Source: Pseudomonas sp. St316 (GTDB lineage Bacteria; Pseudomonadota; Gammaproteobacteria; Pseudomonadales; Pseudomonadaceae). From it: a stretch of DNA of 64,000 nt. The translations under genes and the position numbers were made by a program. Under the pieces are notes generated by a model. It saw only the letters and a list, made by a program, of their open reading frames with translations. It was not told the origin of the DNA and ran no database searches. Location: the NCBI RefSeq assembly GCF_018325905.1, contig NZ_AP021901.1, positions 4,464,001 to 4,528,000 on the forward strand. The letters run 5' to 3'. Positions 1 to 57,419 of the stretch are shown here, one piece after another; the first letter of the stretch is position 1, and each line of letters begins with the position of its first letter.

Positions 1-150
1 GCGGATGATGTCATTGCACAGGTCGACGCACTCGTCGCAAATGAAGACCGAGGGGCCGGCAATCAATTTGCGCACTTCATGCTGGCTTTTGCCACAGAAG
101 GAGCAATAAAGCAGTTTGCCGTTGTCCTCGCCGTTGCGGGTGTCAGTCAT
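1..150 (-). CDS. clpX: ATP-dependent Clp protease ATP-binding subunit ClpX, N-terminal fragment
   Basis: Only the first 50 residues are in the window; the rest lies past the left edge. ClpX is the AAA+ unfoldase that feeds substrates to ClpP. The fragment is its N-terminal zinc-binding domain, with two CxxC pairs at C16/C19 (YCSFCGK) and C38/C41 (CDECVDLC) that bind zinc and recruit substrates and adaptors. clpP lies 107 bases upstream in the same direction and tig beyond it, the usual tig-clpP-clpX order of gamma-proteobacteria. Confidence 0.95.
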
Positions 151-257
151 TCGATCGATCCAAATCCGATAGGCTTGCAACACAAGATGAAGGCAATTGC
201 GGGCTTTTTCAAGCCCGCAGGCGGCCGGTCATCCCAACCACCTGCATATTGAGCGGC

Positions 258-30687: not shown

Positions 30688-30931
30688 CAACCTCAGTGAA
30701 TGCTGAGGCCCTGAATAGGTGCGCGGTCTTTCCCACCGTCCGCCAAAGGCCTTCCCAGCGTCGACGCCCTACTGCATCGATCTCGCTGATCCAGTCTCGC
30801 GCCGCTCTGCAGCAAATTGGTGTGGACAGAGCGCGCGGGCTGCCGGTGTTCTTTCGTGACGCGTGACTTCCGGCAATACCGCGTCCAGGTTGCCCGAAGG
30901 CTGCCCTGGCTACAGGTGAATTTCAGGCAAT

Positions 30932-36602: not shown

Positions 36603-36797
36603 TTAAGCGGCGGATTTTTGGGATGGGAACGGACGCTGCTCTTGTGCCGACAAGCTGCCGTCATCCTCGAGGGTCACGAACACATCACGGCCGACACGGA
36701 TCGCTTTACTCAGGGCGCCCTGCGTGCAGCCAAGCATCTGGGCGGCCTTGGTATGGCCGTGTTCTTTGGCAAATTCGGTGAGTGGGATTCGGCGCAT
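36603..36797 (-). CDS. Cro-like repressor
   Basis: The 64-residue protein has the Cro pattern: MRRIPLTEFAKEHGHTKAAQ and MLGCTQGALSKAIRVGRDVF, a helix-turn-helix with the Q-GALSKAI recognition helix, then a short beta part (FVTLEDDGSL). The ATG follows AGAGGACGCCGCA; an upstream ATG would run into the operator. It is divergent from cI and the first gene of PR. It should bind the same operators as CI and favour lytic growth. Confidence 0.85.
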   Translation of the reverse strand: MRRIPLTEFAKEHGHTKAAQMLGCTQGALSKAIRVGRDVFVTLEDDGSLSAQEQRPFPSQKSAA

Positions 36798-36828
36798 TGC
36801 GGCGTCCTCTGCGTAGATTTCGCCACAA

Positions 36829-36861
36829 GTATGACCGCCGGTATTGTTCATAGTCAATACC
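36829..36861 (-). promoter_or_regulatory. PR-like promoter and right operator (OR)
   Basis: On the minus strand TTGACT (36852-36857), 17 bases, TCATAC (36829-36834) forms the cro promoter. It overlaps a 22-bp operator, GGTATTG-N8-CAATACC (36840-36861), inside a perfect 11-bp inverted repeat. Further half sites (ATATTGG, AAATACC, GGTAATACC) lie between it and cI at 36866-36897 and may be weaker operators controlling cI. The same promoter-operator layout recurs at 39290-39322. Confidence 0.82.
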
Positions 36862-36905: not shown

Positions 36906-37691
36906 ATGAAAAAAGACTCCCGACGGCTTCCGTTATCCGAATGGCAGCTGCAAGACAGCGCCCGGTTGAAATCCCTGTTCCAAGCCAAGCGCGGGGAGCT
37001 GAAGCTCACGCAAGAAAAACTTGCCGCAGAGCTGGGTGATGGCGTTACCCAGGGCGCGGTCAGCCACTTCATGAACGGCCGCACTGCGCTGAGCGTGAAT
37101 GCGGCAGTCGTCTTTGCGCGAGCTCTTGGCGTGCCGGTCTCAGAGATAAGCCCTACTCTGGCGGCTCAGATCGAAATAATGTCTCAGGCGCTCCCTGGGA
37201 AAGGTGCACAGCAGCCCACTGATGGGCGCACTCCCCCGCGTAGCTTCGACTTGAATGATGAGCCTGGATACACCGGCGTCATGCAGTTGACCGCGCGCGG
37301 CTCGGCTGGATCTGGGGACGACAACCCTCACGTAGAGATTCGTGGCGTCATGGCGTTTAAATCGTCCTGGCTGCGGGCGAACAATCTCAACCAGCGCCAC
37401 CTGGACGTCATCTATGCGAGCGGCCACAGCATGGAGCCAACAATCAATGACGGCGACGTGTTGCTGGTGGATGAGTCCAAAATCGAGCCGAAGGACGGGC
37501 AAGTCTTTGCCATGCAGAGCGCCACCAAAGGCACGATCGTGAAGCGCCTGGTTAAGTCCGACATCGAAGGCTGGATCATCCGCAGCGACAACCCGGATAA
37601 GGCGCGTTACGGCGACGAGATCCTGCGCGACGGGGAGATAAACGAGGTTCGCATCATCGGGCGCGTGGTTTGGCGCGGCGGGATGCTGTAG
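36906..37691 (+). CDS. cI: CI-type phage repressor with S24 autocleavage domain
   Basis: The 261-residue repressor maintains lysogeny. The N-terminal helix-turn-helix domain covers about residues 12-85 (LTQEKLAAELGDGVTQGAVSH). The C-terminal LexA/S24 domain has the nucleophile S175 in GHSMEPTINDGD and the general-base lysine K213 in GTIVKRL. A possible self-cleavage site is A134-G135 in the linker. RecA-stimulated cleavage would induce the prophage. It is divergent from cro. Confidence 0.95.
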   Translation: MKKDSRRLPLSEWQLQDSARLKSLFQAKRGELKLTQEKLAAELGDGVTQGAVSHFMNGRTALSVNAAVVFARALGVPVSEISPTLAAQIEIMSQALPGKGAQQPTDGRTPPRSFDLNDEPGYTGVMQLTARGSAGSGDDNPHVEIRGVMAFKSSWLRANNLNQRHLDVIYASGHSMEPTINDGDVLLVDESKIEPKDGQVFAMQSATKGTIVKRLVKSDIEGWIIRSDNPDKARYGDEILRDGEINEVRIIGRVVWRGGML

Positions 37692-40127: not shown

Positions 40128-40394
40128 AGATCAACCAGCGCCAACGACAGCCTGTCGCTGAAAGAATCCTGAGCGGGGATTAAGCCGCCTCCGCCACGGC
40201 CGTCGGACAACACGGTCTTTGTGGGCACTCCAAAGCAGTGTTCGTTTCGCTCCGTATGAGCGAAGGCTTAGCCAATGAACCAAATCAAGAACGCTGACAG
40301 TCGGAAGAGTACGACGGACAGCCGGGAGAGACTGGCCCGATCACCTCGAAAGAGGCCGCATCGGAGGTGACCTTCAGTCCCGAAAGGGTCTAAG
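40128..40394 (+). ncRNA. Left part of an untranslated, strongly self-complementary segment (candidate structured RNA)
   Basis: No supportable coding frame. Many perfect short hairpins lie in order: CGACA/TGTCG (about 40154-40166), GCGG/CCGC, CTTTG/CAAAG (40217-40235), TTCGCT/AGCGAA (40246-40264), CCTC-GAAA-GAGG (40344-40355) and CCC-GAAA-GGG (40379-40388). The stretch 40356-40377 is complementary, 21 of 22, to 43090-43111 on the other side of the IS. The segment is interpreted as the 5' part of one RNA of about 0.6 kb broken by the IS. Limits are set by flanking genes, not by known transcript ends. Confidence 0.5.
40388..40394. repeat. IS21 target site duplication, left copy
   Basis: GTCTAAG directly precedes the left IS end, and the same seven bases follow the right end at 42970-42976. 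This confirms transposition into this site and the exact ends. Confidence 0.9.
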
Positions 40395-40498
40395 TGCGCA
40401 TTCCACGCCATCCGGCCACCCAGCCCACCAACATCCGGCCACCTATTCCACGCTCATCCGGCCGGGCAGTCGGAGCGCAGCGACGCAGGTTTGCATTG

Positions 40499-41254
40499 TT
40501 AGTCTGAAGTCTCTGTCGCCGTCAATTTCGTTGCGCGCCTGCGCATCGATTCGCCCTTCAGTTCGATCCGATAAGCGTTATGTACCAGCCGGTCGAGGAT
40601 CGCATCGCCCAAGGTCGGATCGCCGATCAGTGCGTGCCATTTGTCCACCGGCATCTGGCTAGTCACCAGCGTCGAGCGGTTGCCGTAGCGGTCGTCCAGC
40701 AGTTCAAGCATGTCGCGCCGCTGAGCAGCGGTAAACGGCGCCAAGCCCCAGTCATCCAGGATCAGCAGGTCGGTCTTGGCGTAGCCGGCCATTAGCTTGG
40801 CGAAGCGGCCGTCGCCGTGTGCCAGGCCCAGTTCTTCCATCAAGCGCGGCAGGCGCAGATAGCGCACGCTGTAACCGTCGCGGCAAGCTTTATGAGCCAG
40901 CGCGCAGGCGAGCCAGGTTTTGCCTACGCCCGTCGGCCCGCCGATGATCAGGTTCAGGCCATCGCGCAGCCACTGACCGCTACCCAGTTGCAGGATCAGC
41001 GCCTTGTCCAGGCCACGAGGGCTGCGGTAATCGATGTCTTCCAGGCAGGCGTTATGGCGCAGTCGTGCGGCTTTGAGGCGAGTCGTCAGGCGGGCGTCTT
41101 CGCGCTCGGTCAGCTCGCGGTCGACCATCAGGCCGAGGCGTTCGTCGAAGCTGAGATCGTTGATGTCGGGCGTTGCGTGTTGTTCGCCAAGCGCCTTGAT
41201 CATGCCGTGCAGGCGTAGGATTTGCAGCTTGTCGAGGGTCGGGTTAGGCAGCAT
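40499..41254 (-). CDS. istB: IS21 helper ATPase IstB
   Basis: The 251-residue AAA+ protein related to DnaC assists the transposase in target selection. Walker A is GGPTGVGKTWLACALAHKA (about 105-123), Walker B LLILDDWG and the sensor region VTSQMPVDKWH follow. Full length and uninterrupted, 19 bases after istA. Confidence 0.95.
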   Translation of the reverse strand: MLPNPTLDKLQILRLHGMIKALGEQHATPDINDLSFDERLGLMVDRELTEREDARLTTRLKAARLRHNACLEDIDYRSPRGLDKALILQLGSGQWLRDGLNLIIGGPTGVGKTWLACALAHKACRDGYSVRYLRLPRLMEELGLAHGDGRFAKLMAGYAKTDLLILDDWGLAPFTAAQRRDMLELLDDRYGNRSTLVTSQMPVDKWHALIGDPTLGDAILDRLVHNAYRIELKGESMRRRATKLTATETSD

Positions 41255-41273
41255 GTTCGTGCTCCTTTTTCAG

Positions 41274-42788
41274 TCAGTGGTAGTAGCCAGGGCCGCGCAG
41301 ATTGATATGTTCATCGGGCAGTAACGGCAGGTTTTGCTGGGCAAGAGGTAGCCGTTCCAGGCCTTGGCGCAGGATCGATTCGAGGCTCTTGTAACTGCAT
41401 GCGCCTAGGGCCAGCGCACGTTGGCAAGCGGCTTCCAGCCGCTCTTCGCCGTGCTGTTTGCTCAAGCGCAGGATGCCCAGGCAGGCGCGGAAGCCATGCT
41501 GCGGATGGATTCGGCGTTCGAGGATGTAGGCGATGACACCGGCCGTATTCGGGCCCGTCTGCTCAGCCCAGCGGATCAGCCGCTGGGGCGTCCACTCGGC
41601 GTGTTCGCGGTGACTTTTGGGCATGTGCTCGGTGTGGGTAGTGTGGCGGCCTTTGTGCGGCGAGCGCAGATGGCTGGCCACGCGCTGGTTGGCGTGGAAG
41701 CACTCGACGGTCTGCGCGGTCAGGCGTACTTCGAGTTGGTGTTTCACCAGTTGGTACGGCACGGAGTAAAAATGGCCGTCGACTTCGACGTGGTAGTCGA
41801 TGTGGACTCGCACCTTTTTCCATTCGGCGTAGACATATGGATGTTCTGGTAGCGGTTGCAGCGCGGGTTGGTCGATGGTCTCGAAGGCCGAGCGGCGTGA
41901 GCCGGGCAGTTTCTTGAAGGGCTTCTGATTGAGGCGATCCAGCAGCAACGCGATGGCTGTGTTGAGTTCGCCCAAGGAGAAGAACTGGCGGTTGCGCAGC
42001 ACCGCCAGTATCCACCGCTCGACGACCTGTACGCCGACTTCAACCTTGGCTTTGTCCCTGGGTTTACGCGAGCGCGCGGGCAGCACGGCTACGCCGTAAT
42101 GCTCGGCGAGATCGCGGTAACTGGGGTTGATATCCGGCTCGTAGCGATGCGCCTTGGTCACGCCACTGCGCAGATTGTCGGGCACCAGGATCTGTGCGGT
42201 GCCGCCGAAAAAAGCAAAACAGCGGGCGTGCGAGCCCAGCCAGTCGGGCAGTTTCTGCGACCAGGTCGCCTCGGCGAAGGTGTAGCTGGAGGCGCCGAGG
42301 ACGGCGACGAATATCTGGGCCTGGCGGATCTCTCCGGTTCGCCGGTCGATGATCGGCACGGTCTGACCCGCGTAATCGACGAACAGCTTTTCGCCGGCGC
42401 GATGTTCCTGGCGCATGACCACGTCGACCTTGGCGGCCCAGAGCCGGTAGTGCTCGCAGAACCAGCTGTACTGGAAGCCTTGCGGGTGCGCCAGTCGATA
42501 TTCTTGCCAAAGCAGGGCCAGGGTTACGCCGGGGCGGCGCAACTCTGCGTGGACATGAGTCCAGTCCGGCATCGGACGTTGATCGCTGGGGACGTCGGGT
42601 GGTGGCGGAAAAAGACGCTGCTGCAACTGCGCCTCGCTCGCCGCACACGGCCAAGTCAGCCCGCTGGCAGCAAAGCGATTGAGGTACTCACCGATAGTTG
42701 CGCGACCCACCTGCAAGCTGACAGCGATCTGGCGAGCAGATAGGCCGACCTCAAACTTGAGACGTAGCACTTCCTTAATTTTACGCAT
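41274..42788 (-). CDS. istA: IS21 transposase IstA
   Basis: The 504-residue transposase has an N-terminal helix-turn-helix (FEVGLSARQIAVSLQVGRAT) and a DDE integrase core (KLFVDYAGQTVPI with first Asp, ILVPDNLRSGV with second, and a Glu in KAKVEVGVQ). It ends with a beta/basic C-terminal domain (VHIDYHVEVDGHFYSVPYQL). The ATG after GGAGCGGTTATCC is preferred to an upstream GTG. The frame is intact, so the IS is likely active. Confidence 0.95.
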   Translation of the reverse strand: MRKIKEVLRLKFEVGLSARQIAVSLQVGRATIGEYLNRFAASGLTWPCAASEAQLQQRLFPPPPDVPSDQRPMPDWTHVHAELRRPGVTLALLWQEYRLAHPQGFQYSWFCEHYRLWAAKVDVVMRQEHRAGEKLFVDYAGQTVPIIDRRTGEIRQAQIFVAVLGASSYTFAEATWSQKLPDWLGSHARCFAFFGGTAQILVPDNLRSGVTKAHRYEPDINPSYRDLAEHYGVAVLPARSRKPRDKAKVEVGVQVVERWILAVLRNRQFFSLGELNTAIALLLDRLNQKPFKKLPGSRRSAFETIDQPALQPLPEHPYVYAEWKKVRVHIDYHVEVDGHFYSVPYQLVKHQLEVRLTAQTVECFHANQRVASHLRSPHKGRHTTHTEHMPKSHREHAEWTPQRLIRWAEQTGPNTAGVIAYILERRIHPQHGFRACLGILRLSKQHGEERLEAACQRALALGACSYKSLESILRQGLERLPLAQQNLPLLPDEHINLRGPGYYH

Positions 42789-42969
42789 GGATAACCGCTC
42801 CACGACGACCTCTCTGCTTCGATAAAAGAGGTCGATGGTAGTGAATTAATCCTGCGTTGCTGCCTGCCTTGTGGGTGGCCGGATGGCCGTGGAATGGGTG
42901 GCCGGATCATCGTGGAATCAGTGGCCGGATGTTCATGGAATGGGTGGCCGGATGCCCGTGGAATCCGCA

Positions 42970-43315
42970 GTCTAAGGGCGTCGAGCTGTAAGGTAATGCC
43001 TCGCGGGCCGAAAGGCCGACATATGCGGCGAGGCGCGTAATCGAACTGTATGAACCCAGTTCGGGCGCAAGGCGGACCTGGCCACAGCACTGAAGATCAC
43101 CTCCGATGCGGATGCACGCCCAGGCTGATGGGCAGGTTTGAAAACTAACAGTTCCGAGAGTGAGCGCTGACCGGCTAAGTACTATTTTATGCCCGCGCGG
43201 TACCGGCTCGTAATAACTGGCATTGCGGTAGCCGAAAGGCGTTGACCGCGGCATGACTCTCAACCCGGAGATCAGCACCGGGCATCTGCATCAACCAACC
43301 CAAACGGAGATCACC
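42970..43315 (+). ncRNA. Right part of the untranslated, strongly self-complementary segment (candidate structured RNA)
   Basis: No supportable coding frame. It contains GCCTCGC/GCGAGGC (42998-43034) enclosing GGCC-GAAA-GGCC (43006-43017), CGAACTG/CAGTTCG (43042-43063), the long-range arm 43090-43111, GCCCA/TGGGC (43118-43133) and GCGG/CCGC (43225-43249) enclosing GCC-GAAA-GGC. The first seven bases are the right target duplication. The 3' limit is arbitrary; the next gene's ribosome site begins near 43303. Confidence 0.5.
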
Positions 43316-43531: not shown

Positions 43532-43705
43532 CACTTCTCGCTCCCACAGACCAACCGCTCTATTCCGGGCGCTGGCGACACGAAACCACCTACTTCGCTC
43601 CCGCAGCCGACACCACCCGAATGCACTCTCCTCCGCGCCCAACGGCAACCAGCGGAGCGGATGAGTGCATCCGAGTTTTGTTGGATCAACCACATGGAGC
43701 AAATC

Positions 43706-57082: not shown

Positions 57083-57137
57083 TGGTGCGGACGGAGAGAC
57101 TCGAACTCTCACACCTTGCGGCGCTGGAACCTAAATC
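57083..57137 (-). repeat. Prophage attachment site attR
   Basis: The 55 bases are identical to attL at 2727-2781. They form the 3' part of the intact tRNA-Leu, so integration left the tRNA functional, with its 3' end supplied by the phage. Confidence 0.95.
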
Positions 57138-57167
57138 CAGTGTGTCTACCAATTCCACCACATCCGC
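57083..57167 (-). tRNA. tRNA-Leu (anticodon UAG)
   Basis: The minus strand folds into a class II tRNA with 7-bp acceptor stem GCGGATG, anticodon loop TTTAGGT with anticodon TAG, long variable arm, T loop GTTCGAGTC and encoded CCA. It is the last gene of the Arg-His-Leu cluster. The 3' 55 bases come from the phage side. Confidence 0.95.
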
Positions 57168-57225
57168 GTATCAAGCTTTTAAAGCAAAGGCGCCAGATTT
57201 TTAAATCTGGCGCCTTTCTAGAATA

Positions 57226-57302
57226 TGGGGTGGACGATGGGGATCGAACCCACGACAACGGGAGTCACAATCCCGTGCTCTACCAACTGAGCTACGCCCA
57301 CC
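57226..57302 (-). tRNA. tRNA-His (anticodon GUG)
   Basis: The minus strand gives a standard cloverleaf with an extra 5' G (G-1), anticodon loop TTGTGAC, T loop GTTCGATCC and encoded CCA. A hairpin with GCGCCAGAT-like arms lies between it and tRNA-Leu. Confidence 0.95.
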
Positions 57303-57342
57303 ATATTGCCTTGTTGCCTTACTTGTGCCAAAGCTGCCTAAT

Positions 57343-57419
57343 TGGCGCACCCGGCAGGACTCGAACCTGCGACCATCCGCTTAGAAGGCGGATGCTCTAT
57401 CCAGCTGAGCTACGGGCGC
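57343..57419 (-). tRNA. tRNA-Arg (anticodon UCU)
   Basis: The minus strand gives acceptor stem GCGCCCG/CGGGTGC with one G-U pair, anticodon loop TTCTAAG, T loop GTTCGAGTC and encoded CCA. It is the first gene of the tRNA operon. Confidence 0.95.

Follow-up and report, generated by a model that had tools for sequence, protein, structure and literature searches.

Candidate arrays of modular non-coding RNAs with exchangeable inserts in a Pseudomonas prophage and in other phages

In transfer-messenger RNA (tmRNA) a non-tRNA domain replaces the anticodon arm, and the early leader of the lambdoid phage HK022 contains a structured RNA, put, that acts in antitermination. We know of no counterpart for an RNA frame that covaries and presents hypervariable domains which can be swapped, and put RNA is not known to have hypervariable cassettes. 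A candidate for such a system lies in a 64,000-nucleotide (nt) stretch of Pseudomonas sp. St316 (contig NZ_AP021901.1, positions 4,464,001 to 4,528,000; below, the window), in a non-coding part of a prophage early operon that is interrupted by an IS21-family insertion sequence (IS). We tentatively take this site to be an array of modular non-coding RNA units, of types named A and B, whose first resolved module is broken by the IS21 element.

STnc100 (RF02076) is a prophage small RNA with a relative in the array of phage P1 described below. In the excerpted text of PMC5331693, copies of it have RNA-seq reads in enterohaemorrhagic Escherichia coli (EHEC), and one is visible on a northern blot. 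The excerpts of PMC13192938 describe five Pas RNAs, found by Hfq RNA interaction by ligation and sequencing (RIL-seq) and validated by northern blot, report Hfq-dependent base pairing for them, and present PasD as an Hfq-associated RNA that is thought to have an ancestor in common with STnc100. A link between STnc100 and stx2 is proposed, without functional proof, in the excerpted vesicle paper (PMC12370729). ROOL and GOLLD, as excerpted in PMC12286853, are phage or prophage RNAs of unknown function with kissing loops, a variable part and a presence in tRNA islands; each is one large fold, whereas the units described here are small exchangeable tandem modules.

The reading we favour, at a probability of roughly 0.45, is that the arrays specify phage RNAs which act in trans and diversify rapidly, and which are probably decoys for, or inhibitors of, host factors that bind RNA or target tRNA. 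The first-pass annotation of the window had proposed one large folded RNA split by the IS21 element. The split fold stands, since intact relatives that fold are found, while the idea of a single RNA of fixed form gives way to an array of at least two exchangeable module types.

Frame and loop pair of the B module

In the B frame an outer stem is followed, usually after AA, by hairpin 1 (loop AGGCTGAT) and an insert; hairpin 2 (loop AGATCAGCA) comes last and abuts the outer stem. The window's module was first seen as a 192-nt block that is 97.9% identical in MT836137 and 78.6% identical over 158 nt in Proteus phage Brookers. A script for the frame found 89 modules in 437 sequences (one duplicate excluded) and none in the same sequences reversed; because many loci were fetched by frame patterns, the 89 modules are no frequency estimate. 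The stems differ from module to module, those of hairpin 1 including TGCGC/GCGCA, GCCC/GGGC, TGCAC/GTGCA and TGCTA/TGGCA, and those of hairpin 2 GCCGG/CCGGC, CCCGG/CCGGG, GTCGG/CCGAC and GTAGG/CCTAC. When 17 B modules are aligned (alignment A3), 99.5% of the cells are paired and 11 pairs have changed on both sides, with a covariation score of 0.285 against 0.103 for the shuffled and at most 0.074 for the slid alignment. G-U pairs are present in these stems, and the loop-loop helix itself is nearly invariant. Model R1, trained on 17 modules that share the usual loop of hairpin 1, recovers loop-variant modules as well as that of the window, none of them in the training set. Covariation of the B frame, in its outer stem and hairpins, is well supported. 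In the window the module is made up as follows.

43105..43292 (+): B module, a kissing-loop socket with insert; model R1, built without it, places it at 43106-43291 (41 bits, E 8.8e-7)
43105..43114 (+): 5' strand of the outer stem, partner 43283-43292; 10 pairs, 6 with two-sided changes in alignment A1
43118..43133 (+): hairpin 1, GCCC-AGGCTGAT-GGGC, with loop bases 43124-43129 (GCTGAT); the stem varies among modules
43134..43263 (+): cassette, insert cluster 1, with 11 modules including those of Proteus phage Brookers and P. defluvii
43264..43282 (+): hairpin 2, CCCGG-AGATCAGCA-CCGGG, with loop bases 43271-43276 (ATCAGC), proposed partner 43124-43129; the loop pair covaries in variants

Because the first searches required the common loops, a search free of loop sequence was also done. 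It gave 48 distinct matches, against 1 on reversed sequence; the common pair GCTGAT/ATCAGC is present in 35 of these, and 11 of the other 13 retain 4 or more Watson-Crick pairs. A scan of IMG/VR for hairpin 1 with different loops added at least 157 loci, and a loop-blind search of these 157 yielded 18 matches, compared with 3 on reversed sequence. Eight of the 18 have the frame, while 10 are without it (0-4 complementary loop bases). Both loops are changed together to GTCGAT/ATCGAC in L461, L491 and L501 and, with 5 base pairs (bp), in L459 and L465, and to TGCGAT/ATCGCA in L469. Weaker loop pairs occur in L500 (4 bp) and in a second module of L491 (4 bp), and further variants are GGTGAT/ATCACC (L012) and GCGA/TCGC (L422).

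The A module and its interrupted copy

The A type is a long stem of varying sequence that carries a hypervariable insert. In the window it precedes the B module, and its inverted repeat overlaps the outer stem of the latter.

40144..40157 (+): 5' hairpin ACGACAGCCTGTCG, with which A-type arrays of Pseudomonas recurrently begin
40158..40330 (+): further non-coding stretch from the 5' hairpin to the A module, not assigned to a module type; absent from L020, L113 and L158
40330..40355 (+): A-module entry GACTGGCCCGATCACCTCGAAAGAGG, a CCCGAT strand plus a small hairpin; relatives keep the order ACTGCCCGAT-hairpin-GCATCGG, and the window has ACTGGCCCGAT
40356..40377 (+): 5' arm, pairing with 43090-43111 (21/22); the intact L113 is identical from CGCATCGG onward
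40388..40394 (+): left copy of the target-site duplication GTCTAAG
40395..42969 (-): IS21-family element in the variable loop (Pfam IstB_IS21, rve, Mu-transpos_C_2); intact relatives are without it
42970..43089 (+): right part of the insert, starting with the second GTCTAAG (42970-42976); by eye it resembles the continuous inserts of L020, L113 and L158
43090..43111 (+): 3' arm; its end, 43105-43111, doubles as the start of the B outer stem

The inverted repeat on which the first-pass annotation was built holds: the arms are complementary at 21 of 22 positions, while the best inverted 22-mer between the flanks in 60 shuffles reached 18. The IS21 element that it placed between the arms is likewise there, with a length of 2575 bp and both istB and transposase domains; without it the arms would lie about 130 bases apart by count (one repeat copy included), not 140 as given earlier. 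IstB (PF01695, 249.7 bits) is at 40499-41254 and the transposase, with rve and Mu C-terminal (Mu-transpos_C_2) domains, at 41274-42803, both on the minus strand, and the 7-bp direct repeat GTCTAAG that flanks the element is a target duplication.

Uninterrupted relatives of the split module, which had been anticipated, are found in L020, L113 and L158. These carry the window's arms or near copies of them together with its insert type and no IS element, and in all three the A module follows directly after the 5' hairpin. The arms pair in the predicted folds of the three loci, and the intact module of L158 has a fold energy 6.4 standard deviations below dinucleotide shuffles (z = -6.4). A script that looks for the A frame, with ACTGCC, ATCGG and a long arm plus its complement in this order, gave 122 instances, 114 of them distinct, in the loci searched. 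As also expected earlier, the arms covary between loci: for their variable part the median pairing score is 11 when both arms come from one locus, 8 when they come from two and 6 when the sequence is shuffled, the intermediate cross-locus value being attributed to the GTGTGATCTG that the arms share. A long stem with a score of at least 14 lies immediately upstream of B in 37 of 82 cases, compared with 2 of 164 random positions. The hairpin ACGACAGCCTGTCG followed by TNACTGCC is present in at least 120 IMG/VR stretches and in 20 of 249 genomes of the window's genus; the window itself (G000) is absent from these counts because its hairpin lacks the following TNACTGCC.

Gene order around the site is that of a lambdoid PL operon, in line with the setting suggested before. 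Upstream are a CI-like repressor (36906-37691, +) and a small divergent repressor (36603-36857, -), which is taken as Cro from its position; downstream are an exonuclease (from 46093, +) and a Gam-like protein (from 46842, +). Another conserved non-coding element, around CAACGGCAACCAGCGG within a GCACTC/GAGTGC stem, lies at 43600-43690 (+), and this element or a variant of it is present in 79 of 150 loci bearing the A motif.

Insert cassettes and their distribution

The B inserts range from 31 to 165 nt and fall into 57 clusters in 89 modules, with 48 singletons, and the inserts of 117 distinct A modules form 47 clusters. L020 and L158, whose A modules are identical at 159 of 163 positions, have unrelated B inserts (56/130; lengths 129 and 76), and L113 carries a third kind of module behind its A module. 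The E. coli phage Bas80 and L461 have an insert in common (67/73) and differ in their outer stems and in their loop pairs (GCTGAT/ATCAGC and GTCGAT/ATCGAC, respectively). L038 and L373 also have a common insert (85/94), set in a Pseudomonas-type and an enteric-type outer stem, and the inserts of the window and Brookers are identical at 100 of 130 positions. Cassettes are apparently exchanged between phages by recombination in the conserved frame. The stability of B inserts is modestly above controls (mean z -0.55 vs 0.13, P = 0.001), which is weak evidence. The B insert of the window may bear some likeness to the 23S GTPase centre.

The earlier statement that no coding frame fits the flanks of the IS agrees with the variation of the modules, which is not frame-preserving. 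In 81 modules the insert length modulo 3 is distributed 31/27/23, and at least one frame is open in 58 of the 81, as against 71% of shuffles. A protein-coding reading is rejected on these grounds, since variation ignores the frame and open frames are no commoner than in shuffles.

Far from being confined to this strain, the B module has relatives in phages well beyond Pseudomonas. A typed B-module query matched 202 of 50,697 phage records at E<=10, and 58 of the best 60 of these gave two-piece matches, which fits a frame without the insert. The leading hosts are Klebsiella (65), Pseudomonas (60) and Escherichia (33), and others include Salmonella, Erwinia, Enterobacter, Aeromonas, Burkholderia, Acidovorax, Pantoea and also Proteus; named genomes with B modules include Pseudocitrobacter, Variovorax, Xanthomonas, Stutzerimonas and P. 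defluvii. An exact-pattern scan of genome contigs for CCGGAGATCAGCACCGG returned at least 117 stretches, in most of which the other parts of the frame are missing; a loose filter passes 12 of them, and the full frame is seen by eye in L216, L233, L241, L250, L264 and L302. An exact 19-mer had 1 match in 369 genomes of the class. By model, B is found in 15 of 199 genomes of the window's genus (E<=0.001), a lower bound because the window's own genome is uncalled at that setting though its module scores 41 bits. Nine of ten loci from this survey have the standard or a near-standard loop pair, and L610 was not resolved by the script. Among 5426 complete E. coli genomes, 840 match the P1 insert (E<=0.1) and 1355 a composite B probe (E<=1), 789 of these over 80% of the probe; the weak matches may be due to chance.

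Arrays occupy several genomic settings. They lie in the PL leader in L438, Brookers and L313, in the gap between Q and the lysis genes in PAJU2 and L439, after tRNA genes in P1, among tRNA genes in ZC03, and in Bas80 beside tRNA-Met on the strand opposite to the tail genes. In Erwinia phage 59, which has a module as well as its own N protein, the array is beside the N gene. In L438, an E. coli prophage that also bears a B module, positions 1-182 (-) of the immunity region match isrK and C4 antisense RNA.

The view of the earlier annotation that this is not a known large RNA class agrees with Rfam, in which no class covers A or B: no credible match to either was found in the window, the split region or the relatives, with the exception of the tRNA model on an A module of ZC03. 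No description of the modules was found among the papers listed from the open-licence literature searched, and four conserved module strings were not found in that literature either. The catalogue of candidate phage structured RNAs by Fremin and Bhatt may contain pieces. With a frame-and-cassette principle that matches no class in Rfam or in this literature, the array RNAs may form a new class, a view that is open to doubt mainly for the link to STnc100.

Phage P1, tRNA likeness and possible roles

In layout the B module resembles a tRNA, with an acceptor-like outer stem, a D-arm-like hairpin 1, a T-arm-like hairpin 2 abutting the outer stem, an elbow-like loop pair and the cassette where the anticodon arm would be. 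It differs from tRNA and tmRNA in that it has no consistent CCA end and no anticodon that we could see, its elbow is made of Watson-Crick pairs, and its stem may run into the array; no B module in the loci tested was called a tRNA by ARAGORN or the Rfam tRNA model. With the tRNAs called by ARAGORN left out, there are 15 T-arm-like hairpins in 66.7 kb on the array side, 3 on the other strand and 10 in 731 kb of further sequence. They are strand-specific, and next to B modules their density is about 16 times that found on the rest of this strand; the distance to the loop of hairpin 1, which follows them, is 36-46 nt for 7 of the 15. In ZC03 (L312) the A module just before B (1914-1995) is annotated as tRNA-Arg and scores 42.6 bits with the Rfam tRNA model, but ARAGORN finds no full anticodon and the acceptor continues into the long closed stem. 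Two A inserts, in L312 and L093, scored as tRNA with an incomplete anticodon, while the other A inserts of those loci did not. A few A inserts may be tRNA-like bodies with the acceptor fused into the closed stem, and such bodies, we infer, cannot be charged, which favours a decoy role.

The sequence comparisons show that each unit displays a variable RNA domain on a constant frame, namely a long covarying stem in A, and in B an outer stem with two hairpins locked by the loop-loop pair, and that cassettes are diverse and shared. According to the mechanism we propose, inserts are swapped, apparently through recombination in the frame, and the arrays, transcribed as stable RNA, would work in trans against host RNA-binding proteins, either as decoys or as inhibitors, with tRNA-acting or defence nucleases foremost; cassette diversity would then reflect a phage-host arms race. 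A socket array may let phages swap RNA tools against their hosts. Should the cassettes be decoys, every one of them would point to a host factor, and RNA-based counter-defence could be tested directly in P1 and laboratory E. coli. Possible but doubtful is the bolder claim of an RNA counter-defence arsenal in phages of Gammaproteobacteria and Burkholderiales, in which kissing-loop and long-stem sockets would carry swapped hypervariable domains, tRNA mimics included. No protein would be needed, since every domain would itself neutralise a different nuclease or RNA-binding defence factor of the host, and STnc100 would be one branch of the arsenal.

Several observations weigh against the favoured reading. 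This sequence-only analysis saw no transcript, target or phenotype, and the STnc100 relatives have been studied as Hfq-bound RNAs in the excerpted papers cited above, which points elsewhere. For the insert class of the window, RNAalifold, which cannot draw the loop pair, keeps hairpin 1 and replaces hairpin 2. Loop covariation rests on few variant types: L003 and L325 retain just 3 Watson-Crick pairs, and shuffling loop partners within the 13 non-standard pairs gives P = 0.11, because most of the 13 have one loop type in common. A-insert stability is not above controls (P = 0.12). T-arm-like hairpins are near just 12 of 84 B modules, and 7 of the 15 abut a long stem compared with 128 of 820 random positions; not all cassettes can therefore be explained by tRNA mimicry. 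Of 89 B modules, 13 have a tRNA gene within 600 nt (random 5.6%), at least 4 of the 13 being P1-type copies, and a strict tie to tRNA genes was rejected as weak. Open reading frames of at least 70 amino acids (greedy caller) half-cover 47 of the 89 B modules, and annotators have placed proteins on modules, among the matches listed plp, named over the first B module in other P1-like records, and hypothetical genes in others and in Brookers.

The array of P1 (L308, OP279344; 2415-3320) lies behind tRNA-Asn and tRNA-Thr, where one hypothetical open reading frame and no RNA is annotated, and its 906 nt fold 9.3 standard deviations below 20 shuffles. A repeat search shows four tandem units with spacings of 196, 233 and 261 nt. 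Two of them are B modules, one has diverged and the fourth is STnc100-like; repeats, both direct and inverted, recur along the array. One A part with a T-arm-like hairpin was found by script, and two more, with a common 25-nt repeat, look similar by eye. Each stem has a base strand, GTTGTG in phages of enteric hosts and GATGC in Pseudomonas, that can, by eye, pair either with the A strand before it or with the B strand behind it and is therefore common to adjacent modules; these partly exclusive helices could work as a switch or be left over from the assembly of the modules. The fourth unit matches STnc100 with 33.9 bits (E 1.8e-5), below the gathering cut-off of 47 bits; the window has no STnc100 match, and for the P1 B modules even a threshold of E 10 gives none to RF02076. 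Model R1 gives the STnc100-like unit 20.3 bits and its copy in L440 24.6 bits, and 14 STnc100-type sockets occur in the loci analysed. Further weak Rfam matches in the P1 array (among them mir-142, mir-5985 and, at E 8.1, a short stretch of rydB that covers hairpin 2) were set aside as generic hairpins or chance.

STnc100 has the layout of B, with an outer stem GGUG...CACC, an AAU link, hairpin 1, a middle part and hairpin 2 abutting the outer stem, and in at least 7 of 30 phage records listed, all from Klebsiella, the two end pieces of its consensus match at 98% and the middle does not. It differs in that its loops show no comparable complementarity by eye, and in that the excerpted literature treats it as a single small RNA rather than as a socket of an array. 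These likenesses, together with the RIL-seq and northern blot data on Pas RNAs (PMC13192938) and the RNA-seq and northern blot data on STnc100 (PMC5331693), both in excerpt, are what an Hfq-type base-pairing riboregulator would lead one to expect, whose frame would be a stability scaffold and whose cassettes would hold seeds that regulate mRNAs of host or phage, a role proposed for PasD and STnc100. No common seed is apparent among the cassettes, though no systematic seed search was made, a few cassettes are tRNA-like bodies, and terminator-like sites follow 15 of 81 modules compared with 8 upstream. We regard this alternative as unlikely, but it stays strong because of STnc100. With the arrays, STnc100 and PasD gain a wider family and structural context.

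The PL-leader arrays of L438, Brookers and L313 and those of the leader between Q and lysis genes (PAJU2, L439) would suit an element acting in cis on its own transcript, through antitermination like that by HK022 put, RNA processing or protection of the early mRNA. This is improbable, since a cis element has no need of hypervariable cassettes and Erwinia phage 59 has a module in addition to its own N protein; it is weakened further because arrays also lie in tRNA clusters (P1, ZC03), opposite tail genes (Bas80) and beside an N gene.

Loop pairs could also form between molecules and build oligomers or particles like those of ROOL and GOLLD, which are similarly phage-borne, sometimes near tRNA genes, and have kissing loops and a variable region in a constant frame (excerpts of PMC12286853). 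The two loops of one small module are, however, well placed to pair with each other, and the ROOL and GOLLD models of Rfam gave no match in the window at gathering score, nor at E<=5, 2, 0.5 and 1 in the split region and given relatives, so that we consider a structural role quite improbable. That the palindromes serve recombination, packaging or insertion as DNA, with any RNA incidental, would suit the repeats along the P1 array and the exchange of cassettes at a conserved frame, but it is highly improbable given the strand-specific T-arm-like hairpins (15 vs 3) and the G-U pairs in stems.

Apart from the array, the window contains three tRNA genes (Rfam RF00005) at 57086-57419 (-) and, at 30838-30915 (-), another structured phage RNA, Proteo-phage-1 (RF03044, 65.3 bits).

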